From contig JASBSS010000001.1 of the NCBI GenBank assembly GCA_030148805.1, positions 124,001 to 188,000 of the forward strand: a DNA stretch of 64,000 bases, written 5' to 3'. Positions 36,491 to 45,049 of the stretch are shown here, piece after piece. Position 1 is the first letter of the stretch. The number at the start of each line of letters is the position of its first letter. The stretch is from Thiogranum sp. Lineage in GTDB: Bacteria; Pseudomonadota; Gammaproteobacteria; DSM-19610. A program made the translations under genes and the position numbers. Below the pieces are notes generated by a model. That model searched no databases, was not told the DNA's origin, and was given only the letters and a program-made list of their open reading frames with translations.

Positions 36491-37513
36491 CTAGTGACCA
36501 TGGGCGGGATCGGGGGTTCCGGAGGCGGCAGCGCACGCCGGTGGCCTGCCCCGGTGCCACAGCTCACGCAACTGCGCCAGCGCCGGCTTGGGGGTACCGT
36601 CGTGGCGATAAAACCCCCAGTGGGCCTCCTCGGGGTGATGCCCGAATTCAGCGCGTGCGTTCTCGGTTTTCCAGGGGTGATCGAAGGCCTCGAAGTACAC
36701 GACCCCAAGACCGGAGCGCTCCGGCAGACGCGCGCACAATTGGCGCCAGAACTCGGCCTGACGGGCCGCTGAAAACCCTCTGGCCTGCGGTCCGCTCGGC
36801 AGGCCTGTTTCCTTTATCAGGATCGGTTTGGCGGATTGTTGCCGCAATCGCTGCGCCACATTGAGGACGAAGTCGACCGCCTGAGTCGTGTTCTCCGGCG
36901 CAAACCAGGGCTGGAACAACGGATGCACGCTGGGCAGGAGAAAATCCTGCTGTTGCAGAAAATCCGGCGGCCCGCCGTCCAGATAGAAGTAAAACGGCTC
37001 CGAGGTCGCCACCGCCACGCCCGGCAATTGCGCCCGCAGCTGGTGCATGGCGGCGCGCAGCAAAGGCCAGGAATGACGCCCGGCGAGCAGCGTCTCGTTG
37101 CCGACGGCCACGGCGACCACCAGCTGCGGCCAGCGGCGGGCAAGCCTGACCGCGGCGGCAAGTTCCTGTTGCGAGGTCGGGTCCCAGACCCCGAGGACGA
37201 GGGCACGGAAGCCCAGATCCGCGGCGATGGCGGGGACCGCTTCCAGGCCGCCGCCGCTGGAATACGTCACCAGCCCCTGAAAATCCCCGCGCAGACGCAG
37301 CAGATCCTGTCTTATCTGCCGCGCCGACGCCGCGCGCACCTGGCCATCGACGATGTTCAGATCGGTGGGGGTATAGGCGACGAAACGCACGCTGTCGATG
37401 GCCCGCGACAGGGCTTGCGGGTCGGTCTGCGACTGCGCCCGCAACGGCGCCACGATCACCAGCGCCAGCAATGCCAGCACCGCCACCCGCTCGGACTCAG
37501 TTCGCCGCCGCAC
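36491..37513 (-). CDS. GH17-like exported glycoside hydrolase
   Basis: A 340-residue protein with a signal-like N-terminus (RVAVLALLALVIVAPLRA) and a (beta/alpha)8-type domain. The candidate acid/base is E140 in VAVAVGNETLL and the nucleophile is E235 in ILIKETGLPSGP, matching the VGNE and ETGWPS blocks of GH17 beta-1,3-glucanases. The C-terminal WGFYRHDGTPKP is also typical. The start is the GTG at 37513, overlapping the PA2778-like gene by 17 nt; a GTG at 37486 is an alternative. Likely acts on beta-glucan in the periplasm or outside. The tail is short and low in complexity. Confidence 0.75.
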   Translation of the reverse strand: MRRRTESERVAVLALLALVIVAPLRAQSQTDPQALSRAIDSVRFVAYTPTDLNIVDGQVRAASARQIRQDLLRLRGDFQGLVTYSSGGGLEAVPAIAADLGFRALVLGVWDPTSQQELAAAVRLARRWPQLVVAVAVGNETLLAGRHSWPLLRAAMHQLRAQLPGVAVATSEPFYFYLDGGPPDFLQQQDFLLPSVHPLFQPWFAPENTTQAVDFVLNVAQRLRQQSAKPILIKETGLPSGPQARGFSAARQAEFWRQLCARLPERSGLGVVYFEAFDHPWKTENARAEFGHHPEEAHWGFYRHDGTPKPALAQLRELWHRGRPPACAAASGTPDPAHGH

Positions 37514-38486
37514 AGACGATCGGCTCGCAATCCGGGGATTCGCGGTGGGTCGCCGCGCCTTCGATTTCCTTCAGACTGTCGCGAAAGTTGCTGTTGTGCG
37601 GCGCCAGTCGTACCGCGCAGGCCGCCGCGCTACGCGCCTCCAGCGGACAGGACGTCTGCAGCAACGCGTAGGCGAGGTTGTTCCAGCCCCGAGGATCGCG
37701 CGGTGCGAGTTCGGTGGCCTGGCGAAACGCGGCTGCCGCGGCGCGATAGTCACCGGCGGCGTAATGATTGTTGCCCAGCGCCAGCGAGACACTGGCGTTT
37801 CTCGGCCAGCGTTGTTGCGCCGCGCGATAGGCGCTGGCCGCCGCTGCAGGAGCGCCCGCCTCCATGTCGTGCACCGCCTGGAGATAGCGAAACGCCCGGG
37901 CCGTCACCGGCATCCGGCCCGGCGGCAACACCACCAGCGCCCAGTAGTCGCCGCGCGCCCAGGTGCGCTCGAAGGCCGCCAGCGACGTGCGCCAACGCCG
38001 GGTGGTGCCCGAGCGCAGAAGGATTTCGTTCTGGTCCAGGTCGTAACCGATCACCACCGCGAAGTGCCAGTCGGGGACCCAGCTCAAACCGAGATTCTGC
38101 AACACCAGCACCGGATGGCCCGCGGCGACTTCGGTCAACAGCGCCGGGAGCGAGGGGTCGAGCGGATAGGCCAGCATGCCGTAACGGCGGGCGGTGGCGG
38201 CAAGCTCCGCCGGCAGACTGCCTTTCAACGCCGGCACGTAAACCGAATCGACCAATTGCTCGGGGCGCACCGCGAGGCCCTGCGCACCGAGCACGGTAGC
38301 CAAAGCCGCTGGTCCACACTGGTACTGTTGCTGCGGCCAGAAAGGTGTCCGCTCCAGCTCGACGGCGCGCGCCAAACCGGTGTCGGACTGTGCCGCCAGG
38401 GCGCGCGACTGCGGCGCAGTCGCGCAACCCGCCAGCCCGAACGCGGCGCCCAGTGCCAAAACCCGCAGGCAGGTCGCGCCGCGCAC
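37497..38486 (-). CDS. PA2778-family lipoprotein with C39-like cysteine peptidase and TPR
   Basis: A 329-residue predicted lipoprotein (lipobox LAGC, Cys 21). A C39-type peptidase domain (about 45-190) has catalytic candidates C57 (YQCGPAAL), H141 (DWHFAVVIGYD) and D149. A TPR region (about 205-300) follows. Together with the gene just upstream this is the pair named PA2778/PA2779 after Pseudomonas aeruginosa. The natural substrate is unknown; surface or periplasmic peptide processing is plausible. The start is the GTG at 38486, six bases after the preceding stop. Confidence 0.85.
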   Translation of the reverse strand: MRGATCLRVLALGAAFGLAGCATAPQSRALAAQSDTGLARAVELERTPFWPQQQYQCGPAALATVLGAQGLAVRPEQLVDSVYVPALKGSLPAELAATARRYGMLAYPLDPSLPALLTEVAAGHPVLVLQNLGLSWVPDWHFAVVIGYDLDQNEILLRSGTTRRWRTSLAAFERTWARGDYWALVVLPPGRMPVTARAFRYLQAVHDMEAGAPAAAASAYRAAQQRWPRNASVSLALGNNHYAAGDYRAAAAAFRQATELAPRDPRGWNNLAYALLQTSCPLEARSAAACAVRLAPHNSNFRDSLKEIEGAATHRESPDCEPIVCAAAN

Positions 38487-38492
38487 CCCGCC

Positions 38493-38882
38493 CTACCTGA
38501 CCGGGTGAATGAAGGGGAAGATGTCGGTCGCGCCGATCACGTCGGTAATGATGAAGATGACGAAAATCAACACCAGGACACCGAGCACGTCGCCACCGGC
38601 CTGCTGACTTTCGATGCCGGCGTTGATGCGCGCCAGTTCGCTATTGCTGAGACTGCTGATACGGGCATCGAGCTGCGCCGGATCGACCCCCCAAGCCCGG
38701 AGCTGTTCGCGCGCCGATTCCTGCGCCAGCAACTGTCGCAGGCGGCTTTCGTCCGGGCGCTGCTGGAGCGCTGGACTGACAATTTCACCGGTCCCGACCA
38801 TCGCCGCCTGCGCAGGTCCGATCGGAAGTATCGCCAACACGCAGGACAACAGCGCTGCCAACGTGCGTCGCATGATATGCAT
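38493..38882 (-). CDS. PA2779-family small membrane protein
   Basis: A 129-residue protein with a signal sequence (RRTLAALLSCVLAILPIGPA, QA), a helical polar segment (about 40-95) and a C-terminal membrane helix (VLGVLVLIFVIFIITDVIG). This is the layout of PA2779-type proteins. The ATG at 38882 has GAGGAG eight bases before it. It directly precedes the PA2778-like peptidase gene, and the conserved pairing suggests that it is a partner or substrate. No enzymatic motif is present. Confidence 0.85.
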   Translation of the reverse strand: MHIMRRTLAALLSCVLAILPIGPAQAAMVGTGEIVSPALQQRPDESRLRQLLAQESAREQLRAWGVDPAQLDARISSLSNSELARINAGIESQQAGGDVLGVLVLIFVIFIITDVIGATDIFPFIHPVR

Positions 38883-39072: not shown

Positions 39073-39366
39073 ATGGAATTGCCGCAACGTGACGGGGACG
39101 GTTACCTGGTGGACATGAGCGCGTGGACACCGGAAATCGGGCGCGCAATGGCCGCCGCCGACGGTGTCGAGCTCGACGAATCCCAATGGGAACAGATCCT
39201 GAAAGCGCGGGAATACTACGACGAGCACGCGGTGGTGCCGCCGATCCGCAAGTTCGCCAAGTACATCGGCCAGGATCAGAAGGCCATGTTCAAGCAGTGG
39301 ATGAGTGGACCGATGAAACCGATCACCAAATATGGCGGTCTGCCCAAACCCACGGGGTGCGTCTGA
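39073..39366 (+). CDS. tusE: TusE/DsrC-family sulfur-relay protein
   Basis: A 97-residue protein of the DsrC/TusE/DsvC family. It keeps DGYLVDMSAWTPEIGRAMAA, VPPIRKFAKYIG and the C-terminal arm PKPTGCV with the penultimate cysteine that carries sulfur. The second arm cysteine of true DsrC, about ten residues earlier, is absent (PITKYGG there). TusE-type transfer to tRNA 2-thiouridine synthesis is therefore more likely than dissimilatory sulfite reduction. GAGAGG precedes the ATG. It overlaps the start of the L,D-transpeptidase gene by 10 nt. Confidence 0.9.
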   Translation: MELPQRDGDGYLVDMSAWTPEIGRAMAAADGVELDESQWEQILKAREYYDEHAVVPPIRKFAKYIGQDQKAMFKQWMSGPMKPITKYGGLPKPTGCV

Positions 39367-40280
39367 AGCGCGCGCGGGCGCTGCCGGCCGCCGCCTTGCT
39401 CCTGGCGCCGGCCGGCGCCCACGCCGAAACCCTGATCCGACCGCCGCTGGACGTCGATCTGATCGGTCAGGTGCGCTACGTCGAAGCGCAACCCGAGGAC
39501 ACCTTGCTCGACATCGCCCGGCGCCACGACATCGGTCAGGACGAGATCCTGCACGCCAATCCCCAGGTCGACCGCTGGCTACCCAGGGCCGGCACCCAGG
39601 TGGTGCTGCCTGCCCGCCATATCCTGCCCCTGGCCAAGCGCGAAGGGCTGATCCTCAACGTCGCTGAAATGCGGCTGTACTATTTCCCGCCGTCCCAGGC
39701 GGGCGAGACGGACGTGGTGCAGACCTACCCGGTCAGCGTCGGCCGCATGGATTGGGATACGCCCCAGGGGACCACCCGGATTGTCGCCAAGACCCGCAAC
39801 CCCTCGTGGCGACCGCCGGAATCGATCAAGCAGGAACACGCCGCCGACGGCGACCCCCTGCCCGACGTGGTGCCGGCCGGTCCCGACAATCCGCTGGGCA
39901 AGTACGCCATGCGCTTGGGCCTGCCGGGCTATCTGATCCACAGCACCAACAAGCCCTTCGGCGTGGGCATGCGCGTCACCCACGGCTGTGTGCGCATGTA
40001 TCCGGAGGACATCGAGCGGTTGTTTCCCCAGGTGCCGGTCAATACGCCGGTACAGATCGTCAACCAGCCGGTGAAAGTCGGCTGGCTGGGCGCGACGCTG
40101 TTCATCGAGATCCACCCTCCCTTGGAAGAGGACCGGGAGAAGATCAATCTCATGGCGCGGGCCATGGACCTGATCAACAAGGAACGGGCGCGGCGGCCGT
40201 TCGCGCTGGATGGGGCGGCGTTGAACCGGGCGATCAAGAGCCAGGACGGCATGCCGGCGCCGATCGGTCAGGCCGAGTGA
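39357..40280 (+). CDS. L,D-transpeptidase (ErfK/YbiS type) with LysM
   Basis: A 307-residue periplasmic enzyme. After the signal peptide (about 1-23) comes a LysM-like repeat (about 38-85: VEAQPEDTLLDIARRHDI, ILHANPQVDRWLP) and a YkuD catalytic domain (about 95-235) with YLIHST (H195) and THGCVRMYP (H209, C211). A C-terminal extension of about 70 residues follows, as in ErfK/YbiS/YcfS/YnhG. In Escherichia coli these enzymes attach Braun lipoprotein to peptidoglycan, and an Lpp-type lipoprotein gene lies just downstream on the other strand. The start is a GTG at 39357 inside tusE, which gives a proper signal peptide. Confidence 0.88.
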   Translation: MRLKRARALPAAALLLAPAGAHAETLIRPPLDVDLIGQVRYVEAQPEDTLLDIARRHDIGQDEILHANPQVDRWLPRAGTQVVLPARHILPLAKREGLILNVAEMRLYYFPPSQAGETDVVQTYPVSVGRMDWDTPQGTTRIVAKTRNPSWRPPESIKQEHAADGDPLPDVVPAGPDNPLGKYAMRLGLPGYLIHSTNKPFGVGMRVTHGCVRMYPEDIERLFPQVPVNTPVQIVNQPVKVGWLGATLFIEIHPPLEEDREKINLMARAMDLINKERARRPFALDGAALNRAIKSQDGMPAPIGQAE

Positions 40281-40756: not shown

Positions 40757-41350
40757 TTAGCGCACGACGACCCGCATCCCCAGCCGCACCCAGCGCGCGA
40801 GATCGTCGATCTGCTCGTTGGTGAGCGCGATACAGCCGCTGGTCCAGTTGAAGTCCTCATGGATACGCGGATCGCCGGCGCCGATGCCGTGGATACCCAG
40901 GAAGCCACCCAGGGGGGTTTGCTGCGGCGGCATCCGGGAGTTGGCCAGCGCCTGGCGGATGCGGCGGAATTGTTCCGGCTCGATCACTCCCGCCCGCAAC
41001 GCTCGCTCGGCCTGCGCCAGCGACGGGTAATCAAAACCGAAGAAGCGGTGGAAATGGCTGTCCTCGGCGATGCGGGCGATATGGAACTCGCCCAGGGGGG
41101 TCTTGTCATCGTGGCGGCGTCGATCCTCGGTGGTACCGCCCCGGCCGATGGAGATATTCGGATAACTGCGCTCCACCTGCTCACCCTGCATCACATCGAG
41201 GGTCAGCCGCTGGGTATCGACCAGCAACCAGATCTCTTCTCCCGGCGCGGCGGCAACCGTCCCGGCGGTGGTCCCGAGAGCCGTCGCGACGATCAACAGC
41301 GCGGCCAGCTTGAAAATTGTCAATTTGGTCTCAAGGCGGGCGGGACTCAT
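40757..41350 (-). CDS. L,D-transpeptidase (YkuD domain), short type
   Basis: A 197-residue periplasmic enzyme with an N-terminal signal segment (LTIFKLAALLIVATALGTTA) and a YkuD domain. GIHGIG (H154) and TSGCIALTN (C173) form the active site. A helical insert (about 105-145) stands before the active-site region, and there is no LysM. It is upstream of and co-oriented with the Lpp-type gene. It may cross-link peptidoglycan or act on that lipoprotein. The ATG at 41350 lacks a clear ribosome site; a TTG nearer the hydrophobic core is possible. Confidence 0.85.
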   Translation of the reverse strand: MSPARLETKLTIFKLAALLIVATALGTTAGTVAAAPGEEIWLLVDTQRLTLDVMQGEQVERSYPNISIGRGGTTEDRRRHDDKTPLGEFHIARIAEDSHFHRFFGFDYPSLAQAERALRAGVIEPEQFRRIRQALANSRMPPQQTPLGGFLGIHGIGAGDPRIHEDFNWTSGCIALTNEQIDDLARWVRLGMRVVVR

Positions 41351-41486
41351 CGGCGTTATTGTACCGGATCGACGACAAGGGCGGGAGCTTTCCACCCAGA
41401 GCAACCCGTGATTGCAGGGCGCCGGCCGGTCGGCGATACTCAAGCGCCTGCGTTAGCCCGCAAGATGACCCCGGCGTGAGGCGGTG

Positions 41487-42259: not shown

Positions 42260-43402
42260 TCACAGGCGTTTGAGCAGCAGGCGCAAAGGACGGAGCAGGT
42301 AATACAGAAACGCCAGGCCCCTGGGCAGATCGACTAGGGAGCGGTCCGCGTCGCCCGGCGTCAATGCCCACCGTAGCCAGCCCCCCAATCGGTACCAGGG
42401 TGAATCGGTGAGCGCCAGGTAGTAAGCCGTTTGGGAACGGTGGTACAGCGGTTTCATCGCCTCGCTCAGGGTGTCGGTGTCGGCCGGAAACAGATGCGCG
42501 TGCACCTCGTCGGCCAGCCGCCGGATACTTCTGCGCCGCACCAGCCGCGCCGGTGCGCCTTGCGGCAAGGGCACGTCCAGCAAGCGGTTGGCCAACACGG
42601 CGGCTACCGCCAGCGCCCGCCGGCAGCCGAGTTCGCGGGCGCGCAAAAACGCGCCGCGCCAGTCCTCGGCGCTGTATTCACCCGTCAACCGGGCCATGTC
42701 GCTGAGATAATGCAGCGAAGGTTTCCAGTACTCCTTCACCGCGTTGAGCGCGCAGATCAACAGACAATCAGGTCCGCAGAAAGTCGGGACCGGTTGCCCC
42801 ATGAGCGGCACAGTGCACACCGCGTCCCACAAGCGTTCCCAGCGCAGCGGTAGATTCCTCGGTGGCATACCCCAATGCAGATCGATGGCCGTATGATGCT
42901 GACTGTGCGCCAGACAGGACTGCAAGGCCGCCGGATGACGTTCCTGCACCCGGTAACCAAGGTTCACCAACAAGCGCTCGGCGGCGGCGTGATCGTCCGG
43001 TGACACCAGCAGATCCAGATCGCCGCAGGCGCGCAGCGCCAGATCACCGTGAATCAGCACCGCAGCCACCGGTCCCTTGAACGCGGCAACCCGGATGCCG
43101 GCCGCCGCGAACTGGCGCACCAGTTCCAGCAATTGCGTCGCCAACGCCAGATTGTGACAGGTGTAGGCCTTGTGCAGGCGTTGCAGCTCCTGTCCCAACG
43201 CCGGGCTGAGCAGCACGCCGCCATGCTGCTGCAGATTCACCGACAACAGAGGGATGGCACGATACCCCTCGGCCAGGCGCAATATTCTCGCCCAGTCGAG
43301 GTCTCGTCGCAGCAGGTCGTGCAACCGTGAGACCGCCTGGGCATCCAGCCGGGGCCGGGCGCACAATGACAGCAATTCGGTTTCCGCTAGGCTAGGCAAC
43401 AT
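42260..43402 (-). CDS. Nucleotidyltransferase-fold protein (PF14907 type)
   Basis: A 380-residue protein of the large nucleotidyltransferase family often found in peptide-modification loci. The core reads AAFKGPVAAVLIHGDLALRA, then CGDLDLLVSPDD, giving the catalytic Asp pair D128/D130. Later HTAIDLHWGMPP supplies the third acidic residue. The C-terminal half is helical. I chose the ATG at 43402; the frame extends to 43537 but that part is unlike the family start. It is the outermost gene of a cassette with a PqqD-like chaperone, an HprK-like kinase and a small leader-bearing protein. Transfer of a nucleotide to a peptide or protein is a reasonable guess. Confidence 0.82.
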   Translation of the reverse strand: MLPSLAETELLSLCARPRLDAQAVSRLHDLLRRDLDWARILRLAEGYRAIPLLSVNLQQHGGVLLSPALGQELQRLHKAYTCHNLALATQLLELVRQFAAAGIRVAAFKGPVAAVLIHGDLALRACGDLDLLVSPDDHAAAERLLVNLGYRVQERHPAALQSCLAHSQHHTAIDLHWGMPPRNLPLRWERLWDAVCTVPLMGQPVPTFCGPDCLLICALNAVKEYWKPSLHYLSDMARLTGEYSAEDWRGAFLRARELGCRRALAVAAVLANRLLDVPLPQGAPARLVRRRSIRRLADEVHAHLFPADTDTLSEAMKPLYHRSQTAYYLALTDSPWYRLGGWLRWALTPGDADRSLVDLPRGLAFLYYLLRPLRLLLKRL

Positions 43403-43577
43403 CGGTTGGCGCAGGATTTTGTAGTCGTTATGAACACCAAGATATAGGAAAACCGGGCCGGCCGCACGCTCCGCGCCCGCCTCCAAGCCCGCTGACAAGT
43501 CAGCGCCACCGGGATACGCTAGAATGAGCGGCGCCACCGGCGCCGAGCGTCGTGAACCTCAGCCCAACGGAAGAACC

Positions 43578-43844
43578 ATGTCGCCAAAACTACAAAGCCA
43601 TCTGAGCGTCCAGAAAGTCGCAGACGAGGCACTGGTCCTCGACGTGAACAGCGGCCAGATCCATCAATTGAACGCCTCCGCGGCCTGGCTGTTGGCACAG
43701 TGCGACGGGAACAAACCCGTGGAGCAGCTGATCGAGGATTTCGCCGCCCACTTCGCCCTGGACGAGACCACCGCCCGGCGCGACGTCAACGCCGCCCTTG
43801 CGCAGCTGGTGGAGCTGCGGATCGTGACCCCGGACAGCCCCTAA
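43578..43844 (+). CDS. PqqD-family peptide chaperone
   Basis: An 88-residue PqqD-like domain: VADEALVLDVNSGQIHQLNA, SAAWLLAQCDGNKPVEQLIE, DFAAHFALDETTARRDV. PqqD domains bind leader peptides and hand them to modifying enzymes. It lies between the nucleotidyltransferase and HprK-like kinase genes but on the opposite strand, and its stop is 8 nt from the kinase stop. This resembles what NCBI/TIGRFAMs call the HPr-rel-A system PqqD family chaperone, from memory. The ATG at 43578 has GGAAG six bases upstream. Confidence 0.88.
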   Translation: MSPKLQSHLSVQKVADEALVLDVNSGQIHQLNASAAWLLAQCDGNKPVEQLIEDFAAHFALDETTARRDVNAALAQLVELRIVTPDSP

Positions 43845-43851
43845 GGATCCG

Positions 43852-44688
43852 TTACCCGCCGGCTCTCAAATCCGCGATCAATTCACAGGTCGCGCGCAGC
43901 TCGCCGGCCTCCAACAGATAAGCCGGAACCGCCGAGGCGATGCTCACCGCGGCCTCCAGGCCCTTGGCCGGATGCGCCAGGGCATTCAGCGTATTGGCGT
44001 AGAGCCGCGCGCTCGCCTCGGCCGGAGAAACGCGGGTGCAGCGGGGCGGGTCCGCGCCAGCCGAGCGCTGCAGGAAGACTATCGCGCCCAGCGCTCTGGG
44101 GTCGAACACCGTACGGCCCGGCAAATCGGCGACAGGAACATGCAGGGTTCTTTCGGTGCGGGTGACGGTTTCGGGCAACGGATAGGGCCCCGGCGGCGGC
44201 GTCTTGAGACAAAGGGCGTGCGGATACGCGTGGACGGCGCAACTCTCGGGCTCGAGCACCGCCAGTTCATCGCTTAGATAATCGAAGCCGTGGCTCAACA
44301 GCGCCCACGCCGTGGTCGATTTTCCGGTACCGGACTCGGCGACGATCATCGTCACCCTATCGCCATAGGCCAGGGCCGCCGAATGCACGAAATACAGATC
44401 GGGTCGCCGCCTCTGTAAATCGATGGTCAGCAACTTCTCGAACCCGTAGATGAACAGATACGGCAGCGCGGGATCGTTCTCCTGTTCCAGGGCGATCTGG
44501 TCGCCTCTGCGAACGCGGAAGCCACCATCATCGCTTCCTTCCACCGTATAATCCATATCCGCAGCAGCGTCCTCCGATTGACGAAACGCCTGGTAGTTGA
44601 CCAGCAGCAAATCGTTGAAACGCGGATCGCGGCAACGCACCACGATTCGCTGGTCGAAGATCCGGAAGTGGAATTCAGTAGGAAGCAA
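43852..44688 (-). CDS. HprK-related kinase
   Basis: A 278-residue protein with an HPr kinase/PEP carboxykinase-type core. FVHSAALAYGDRVTMIVAE leads into the P-loop AESGTGKSTT (117-126), and the metal-binding motif SDELAVLEP follows (139 on). The first 90 residues form an N-terminal domain with YLFIYGFEKLL and FEKLLTIDLQ. No HPr or PTS genes are nearby, so the target is probably a peptide or protein of this cassette. It fits the HprK-related kinase A family as I recall it. The start is unclear: a TTG at 44688 is the only candidate before residue 45. A terminator separates it from the small-protein gene upstream. Confidence 0.82.
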   Translation of the reverse strand: MLPTEFHFRIFDQRIVVRCRDPRFNDLLLVNYQAFRQSEDAAADMDYTVEGSDDGGFRVRRGDQIALEQENDPALPYLFIYGFEKLLTIDLQRRRPDLYFVHSAALAYGDRVTMIVAESGTGKSTTAWALLSHGFDYLSDELAVLEPESCAVHAYPHALCLKTPPPGPYPLPETVTRTERTLHVPVADLPGRTVFDPRALGAIVFLQRSAGADPPRCTRVSPAEASARLYANTLNALAHPAKGLEAAVSIASAVPAYLLEAGELRATCELIADLRAGG

Positions 44689-44714
44689 GCGGACTTCTGG
44701 GGGGCAATCTAAAG

Positions 44715-44747
44715 AAAAAGCCGCGCTGTCACCAGTGCGGCTTTTTT
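44715..44747. terminator. Bidirectional-type terminator between the small protein and kinase genes
   Basis: Arms AAAAAGCCGC and GCGGCTTTTT pair perfectly, with CTG/CAG extending the stem inside. There are T tracts on both strands. It lies 24 nt after the stop of the small protein (minus strand) and before the kinase start. This allows high expression of the small gene and limited read-through. Confidence 0.9.
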
Positions 44748-44770
44748 GGCCCTACGAGCCGGAAACGAAC

Positions 44771-45049
44771 TTACTTGGGACGGCCGCCCATTTTCGCGCC
44801 ACTCTGACCGAAGGGAGCGAAATTTCCACCGTCGTTGAAATCCTGGTTCACCTTCTTGGCCAAACCGGGCGGCGGACCGTCGAAGAGACCGCGTTTTTCC
44901 TGCCCGATGCCGTTGTTCCCCCTGAGAATGATATTCGAACCGTTCTTGGCGAACGACGGCATCGCGGTCATGGTCAGAATGACCGGGGCCACGTAGCCGG
45001 CTTTTTTCAGAAAGTCTCGCCGGGATTTCTGATGATCGTCTGTATTCAT
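44771..45049 (-). CDS. Small protein with Tat-like leader, candidate cassette substrate
   Basis: A 92-residue protein I cannot assign. The N-terminus KSRRDFLKKAGYVAPVILTM has a twin-arginine-type motif (SRRDFLKK) and a hydrophobic stretch ending in PSFA, so it could be exported. The mature part is about 58 residues, Gly/Asn/Pro-rich, with ILRGNNGIGQEKRGLF, DGPPPGLAKK and GGNFAPFGQSGAKMGGRPK. It has no cysteine. It is the first gene before the HprK-like kinase, with its own terminator and a good ribosome site (GAGGAG). Size, leader and position suggest it is the substrate of the PqqD/kinase/nucleotidyltransferase genes, which is inference. Confidence 0.78.
   Translation of the reverse strand: MNTDDHQKSRRDFLKKAGYVAPVILTMTAMPSFAKNGSNIILRGNNGIGQEKRGLFDGPPPGLAKKVNQDFNDGGNFAPFGQSGAKMGGRPK

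Follow-up and report, generated by a model that had tools for sequence, protein, structure and literature searches.

The closest described system to the cassette analysed here is that of the linear polyphosphorylated peptides (LPPs), stated to be restricted to Bacillota, whose loci encode a discrete RRE, an HprK-like kinase, an NTP transferase, an SpI-like peptidase, an MsbA-like transporter and precursors with a YxxP-containing N-terminal part and a variable C terminus (Popov et al. 2026, PMC13381572). The Paenibacillus kinase LppK places several phosphates on core Ser3, which the S3A substitution abolishes; lasso and LPP RREs bind the leader through YxxPx[IV], for which the RRE LppB uses N33 to hold the backbone at the P and D70 to hold the Tyr (PMC13381572). 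No activity of the NTP transferase LppN, a homologue of the nucleotidyltransferase described below, was detected in the published test (PMC13381572). HprK-like kinases also modify the phosphorylated lasso peptides Bsf (PMC10368454), paeninodin and pseudomycoidin (PMC8498205); in Bradymonas the kinase BsfK, assisted by the RRE BsfB1, phosphorylates core Ser3 (PMC10368454). A nucleotidyltransferase (NTase) lies beside the kinase in both Bsf and pseudomycoidin, and in the latter it attaches hexoses to the phosphate (PMC8498205).

We analysed a stretch of 64,000 nucleotides from Thiogranum sp. (the window), in which positions 42260-45049 hold four genes. These encode an NTase (42260..43402, minus strand), an 88-aa PqqD/RRE leader-binding protein (43578..43844, plus strand), an HprK/PEPCK-fold kinase (43852..44688, minus strand; TTG start, ~278 aa, P-loop SGTGKSTT) and a small precursor protein of 92 aa (44771..45049, minus strand) with a Tat-like leader, a YxxP motif, a GS motif and a Gly/Pro-rich core. 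The NTase start is likely ATG 43402, giving ~380 aa, with GTG 43537 as the longer alternative. The PqqD gene and the kinase gene are on opposite strands and thus not in one operon, which is a point against the reading proposed below. In relatives the usual order is NTase (minus), PqqD (plus), small gene (plus), kinase (plus). A terminator-like hairpin (44715..44747, minus strand), whose long stem has a single internal mismatch and precedes a T-run, lies between the small gene and the kinase and would yield precursor in excess of enzyme; equivalent hairpins occupy the same position in the relatives L041 and L042, and 15 of the 46 small genes have a hairpin with a T-run downstream, where 0.65 would be expected. 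The window also contains two closely spaced YkuD L,D-transpeptidase genes on opposite strands (39123-40280 and 40757-41443) and, as a separate gene pair, a C39-like peptidase with TPR repeats adjoining a DUF6627 protein (37497-38882, minus strand).

The small gene is real, because its dN/dS is ~0.11 when compared with the same gene in a Thiogranum MAG, with similar values in leader and core, and because homologues lie beside 37 of 47 related kinases. Between the same two genomes the small protein is 90% conserved, as against 66-71% for the three enzymes. An earlier note on this DNA, made from the letters alone, had described these four products and proposed that they form a modification cassette in which the small protein is the kinase target. 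That identification of the genes was borne out by the searches described below, and the small protein stands out clearly as the most probable substrate.

The PqqD protein matches PF05402 (E 1.9e-15), and among solved sequences it is closest to TfuB1 and TbiB1, both of them lasso RREs. Its AlphaFold2 model (pLDDT 92.2) superimposes on leader-bound TbiB1 with a TM score of 0.87. Asn32 and Asp69 are at least 90% conserved among the cassette PqqD proteins, and they profile-align to LppB N33 and D70 with the same 37-residue spacing, so that the cassette RRE carries the Asn/Asp pair that reads YxxP. The kinase is recognised weakly by sequence (Pfam Hpr_kinase_C, E 0.055) and clearly by structure: its AlphaFold2 model, built on 46 relatives (pLDDT 95.6), matches PEPCK and HprK structures in Foldseek. 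PEPCK and HprK have a common fold. The residues His102, G122-K-S-T125 and D140-E141 are invariant in the 46 relatives; the cassette kinase thus shares with PTS HprK/P its fold, its P-loop and its His (upstream of the P-loop) and Asp positions, differing in having DE where HprK has DD. Its catalytic residues are likewise those of the BsfK motif H-G-G-G-K-S-D-D except for DE in place of DD (PMC10368454). The NTase matches Pfam NTP_transf_5 (PF14907, E 8.3e-47); the Asp pair noted earlier is present as GDLDLLV, and the D-x-D and KG motifs are kept across a 39-row alignment of cassette NTases.

We determined the anatomy of the leader from 46 small proteins, with positions anchored on RR and P. The RR is present in all 46, preceded by Ser in 34 and with F as the fourth residue in most; the P is also fixed in all 46, 12 residues after the RR or 15 in the five with a three-residue insertion, and Y stands three before it in 44. 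A Ser follows at P+16 in 42 proteins and at P+17 in 3, the remaining one having Cys. The leader region reads SRRxF[VIL]KKAAYVAPAILTLxAxPSFAxxGS; past the GS the proteins vary in length and composition, and in 7 of the 46 the fixed-register Ser is the sole Ser/Thr of the mature region. In the window protein (P0004) these features correspond to the Tat motif S9-R-R-D-F-L14 (45008..45025, minus strand), the RRE-binding YxxP motif Y19-V-A-P22 (44984..44995, minus strand), which is inside the hydrophobic stretch, and Ser38 of the GS motif (44936..44938, minus strand), the proposed phospho-acceptor, four residues past the predicted cleavage at Ala34. The RRE-binding motif within the Tat-like leader had not been recognised in the earlier note. 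P0004 scores 13.7 bits against TIGR01409 (cut-off 16.7), the S-R-R-x-F-L-K Tat motif is found across the family, and the genome encodes TatC. Among 30 ordinary Tat signals taken from related genomes, not one has Y at RR+9 together with P at RR+12, and the family leader is therefore best described as a Tat consensus plus YxxPx[IV].

The core module of P0004 (44774..44917, minus strand) carries NNGIGQEKRGLFDGPPPGLAKKVNQDFND. Cores of the form NNG[VI]GNGxD..PPG..ND also occur in the window-type precursors of L054, L057 and L068, and in a precursor that accompanies a third type of kinase, again from this genus (G667, L193). The related module N[NE]GxGNGxDxPPPGHxxxxNDGxxTxPGxPG was seen inside giant Ig-like repeat proteins of two other genomes, at L198 (G172:C12, 3578-aa frame) and L199 (G107:C1, 1257-aa frame). 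That one core type stands behind several leaders and within giant repeat proteins shows that leaders and cores are mixed and matched, and links the P0004-type core to surface-type proteins. At L027:8127-8411 (G184:C4) there is a full-length but orphan homologue that shares 74% identity with the small protein, core included, and has no kinase within 8 kb on either side; the G184 cassette is on a different contig, where a broken NNGIGNG remnant (L026:4834-4953) lies next to it.

Scanning the genome contigs with an alignment revealed 47 further loci with a window-type kinase (L041-L087), whereas a single-sequence kinase scan of the contigs gave no match and a kinase profile run over the phylum added only distant kinases. 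The hosts are mostly Gammaproteobacteria, including Burkholderiales, with a few Deltaproteobacteria, Rokubacteria, Binatia and Acidobacteriota. The cassette has a patchy distribution in the genus, where 4 of 17 genomes have a window-type kinase. According to the earlier note, absence of the small gene beside homologous cassettes would refute its proposal, and the outcome favours the proposal. The small gene adjoins the kinase at 37 of the 47 loci, some of which have two or three small genes; at five (L043, L044, L060, L071, L079) the contig ends just ahead of the kinase and the locus is cut short, for two (L056, L072) the assembly has the small gene elsewhere (L081, L085), and at three (L050, L069, L075) it is missing. 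We also ran the leader profile alone, for which E-values depend on short profiles in the case of such small leaders, and compared its matches with the kinases of 274 genomes of the class. Strong matches were obtained in 7 genomes, 6 of which have a window-type kinase (Fisher p 3.5e-10); in the seventh the copies are near contig ends. All 11 genomes with weaker leader matches have a TIGR04352-like kinase close to the leader gene (Fisher p 4e-10).

There was no fifth recurring neighbour gene across the 47 loci: two clusters common to many loci overlie the kinase or NTase and are shadow ORFs, and small clusters shared by 3-4 loci reflect close relatives. Neither a leader peptidase nor a transporter recurs beside these cassettes or is found among the annotated neighbours in the window. 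A phage or defence system was rejected as an explanation (no PHROG or PADLOC match), as was plasmid carriage (just one distant match). Two loci with truncated kinases and no detectable leader gene, L034 (G196:C126), in which the NTase frame is also broken, and L035 (G170:C35), are apparently decaying cassettes. A third kinase/PqqD/NTase type is present in the same genus at L130/L192 (G205:C97) and L193 (G667:C28), with the leader RRxFLKKAGKxAVYTPPAxMxLM.

The cassette therefore resembles the LPP system in its discrete RRE, HprK-like kinase, NTP transferase and precursors with a YxxP-bearing N-terminal part and a variable C terminus, and in both there is no lasso cyclase and a conserved Ser just past the cleavage site, 18 residues from the Tyr in the published LPP consensus and 19 in the window cassette. 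However, of the LPP motif YxxPxVLxHQxIxFETxxS (PMC13381572) the cassette leaders match YxxPx[IV]L and the Ser register but not HQxIxFET, and they carry a twin-arginine motif where the LPP leader consensus has no RR. The SpI-like peptidase and MsbA-like transporter of LPP loci are found neither among the annotated neighbours in the window nor recurrently at the 47 loci, and the hosts are mainly Gammaproteobacteria rather than Bacillota. With two defining genes missing, the cassette works like an LPP system but is not classed as one. With the phosphorylated lasso peptides it shares the HprK-like kinase and, as in Bsf and pseudomycoidin, an NTase beside it. No macrolactam cyclase or B2 peptidase is present among the annotated window neighbours or recurs in relatives, so the product should be linear. 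We found no description of a window-type cassette, and no report of a RiPP precursor with a twin-arginine motif, in the open-licence PMC literature. Phospho-RiPPs whose biosynthesis combines an RRE with an HprK-like kinase and an NTP transferase are already known (PMC10368454, PMC13381572), so the 'new chemistry' expected in the earlier note was too strong a term.

The earlier note had also likened the cassette to the system labelled HPr-rel-A, which has the same kinds of genes. As written, this likeness did not hold: the kinase scores 67 bits against TIGR04352, far below the cut-off of 200, and the PqqD protein 33.3 bits against TIGR04353, narrowly under the cut-off of 35. As both scores are under their cut-offs, the window cassette is a sister of HPr-rel-A and not HPr-rel-A itself. 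Among 26 loci above the TIGR04352 cut-off (L092-L117), 19 have a Tat-leader protein upstream (18 read directly and 1, in G015, from the leader profile), with a leader that is typically RRKxxKAGLxAPVIMTLxSRPxxGAxCxxSGxxSGNLS followed by a core of ~150-200 aa. This protein, of ~200 aa, with the CxxSGxxSGNLS start and a TPGYW motif, is a candidate substrate, and HPr-rel-A, whose gene order differs from that of the window cassette, looks like a sister system with a larger substrate. Searches of the open-licence PMC literature for TIGR04352, TIGR04353 and HPr-rel-A found no naming paper.

These observations suggest that the four genes probably form a RiPP-like phosphorylation set in which the precursor leader doubles as a Tat export signal, i.e. 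that the product is a Tat-exported phospho-RiPP. The small protein is very probably the client of PqqD. Sequence and structure together strongly suggest that PqqD grips the YxxP within the hydrophobic stretch; bound in this way, the precursor would present Ser38, at its fixed distance of 19 residues from the Tyr, to the active site of the kinase. On the model of LppK and BsfK, and with the kinase residues invariant in 46 relatives, the kinase probably phosphorylates Ser38 in the cytoplasm, possibly more than once, although four of the 46 sequences shift or lack this Ser and its conservation could instead reflect a signal-peptidase or leader recognition site. The chances are about even that the NTase then acts on the phosphate, to which, as the pseudomycoidin precedent weakly suggests, it may attach another moiety such as a sugar or a nucleotide. 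The modified protein would leave via Tat, and the general signal peptidase would cut after Ala34, a site predicted from the consensus, releasing a core with the modification near its N terminus. We consider Tat export likely, given the motif, the TatC in the genome and the finding that no peptidase or transporter recurs next to the cassettes.

Because the hydrophobic stretch of the signal contains the RRE motif, binding to PqqD should preclude insertion into Tat and vice versa, and this raises the alternative that the small protein is the client but that PqqD and kinase phosphorylation serve as an export control switch, e.g. delaying Tat transport, with the phosphate absent from the final product. 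Tat substrates often have dedicated signal-binding chaperones, which fits this idea, but to our knowledge no Tat chaperone known so far is a PqqD protein. The switch would also leave the NTase unexplained, and known RRE-HprK pairs keep the phosphate on the core (PMC10368454, PMC13381572); overall we consider it unlikely. It is quite doubtful, too, that the leader serves the RRE alone, with the RR and hydrophobic stretch unused for Tat, the product cytoplasmic or otherwise exported, and GS acting as a protease site. The Bacillota LPP leader consensus indeed has no RR and its system uses a dedicated SpI peptidase (PMC13381572). Here, however, the RR is invariant (46/46, in the pattern S-R-R-x-F-[LVI]-K), no peptidase or ABC transporter recurs at the 47 loci, and the core module is also found in surface-type giant repeat proteins. 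A point for that reading is that leader peptidases of other RiPPs can cut at GS.

It is very improbable that the kinase acts on PTS HPr or another host protein with the small gene as a passenger. The kinase has the HprK/PEPCK fold and, against the earlier statement that there are no PTS genes, which is untrue genome-wide, the genome does encode HPr. However, HPr adjoins its own bona fide HprK on a different contig, which is still consistent with another target for the cassette kinase, and the leader gene co-occurs with the kinase from genome to genome and evolves under purifying selection. We therefore rejected PTS/HPr as the target and retain the small protein as the probable substrate of a Tat-exported phospho-RiPP cassette.

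On this interpretation, the range of RRE-guided kinase RiPPs would grow beyond Bacillota and the lasso peptides to include dozens of Gammaproteobacteria as well as a few other phyla, with one acceptor residue in a proposed substrate. Because Tat transports cargo that is folded or modified, it would offer a peptide modified in the cytoplasm an exit route without a transporter of its own. HPr-rel-A, so far unexplained, gains a candidate substrate. More tentatively, and with somewhat less than even confidence, the cassettes may represent a class of exported phosphopeptides that is widespread in proteobacteria. A single short signal would then serve either to dock on the RRE, for phosphorylation of Ser in the cytoplasm, or to direct export by Tat, the two roles excluding each other. 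Phosphate-based decoration would in this way be placed onto surface modules shared with giant adhesin-like proteins, and HPr-rel-A would be a second branch with a 200-aa substrate.
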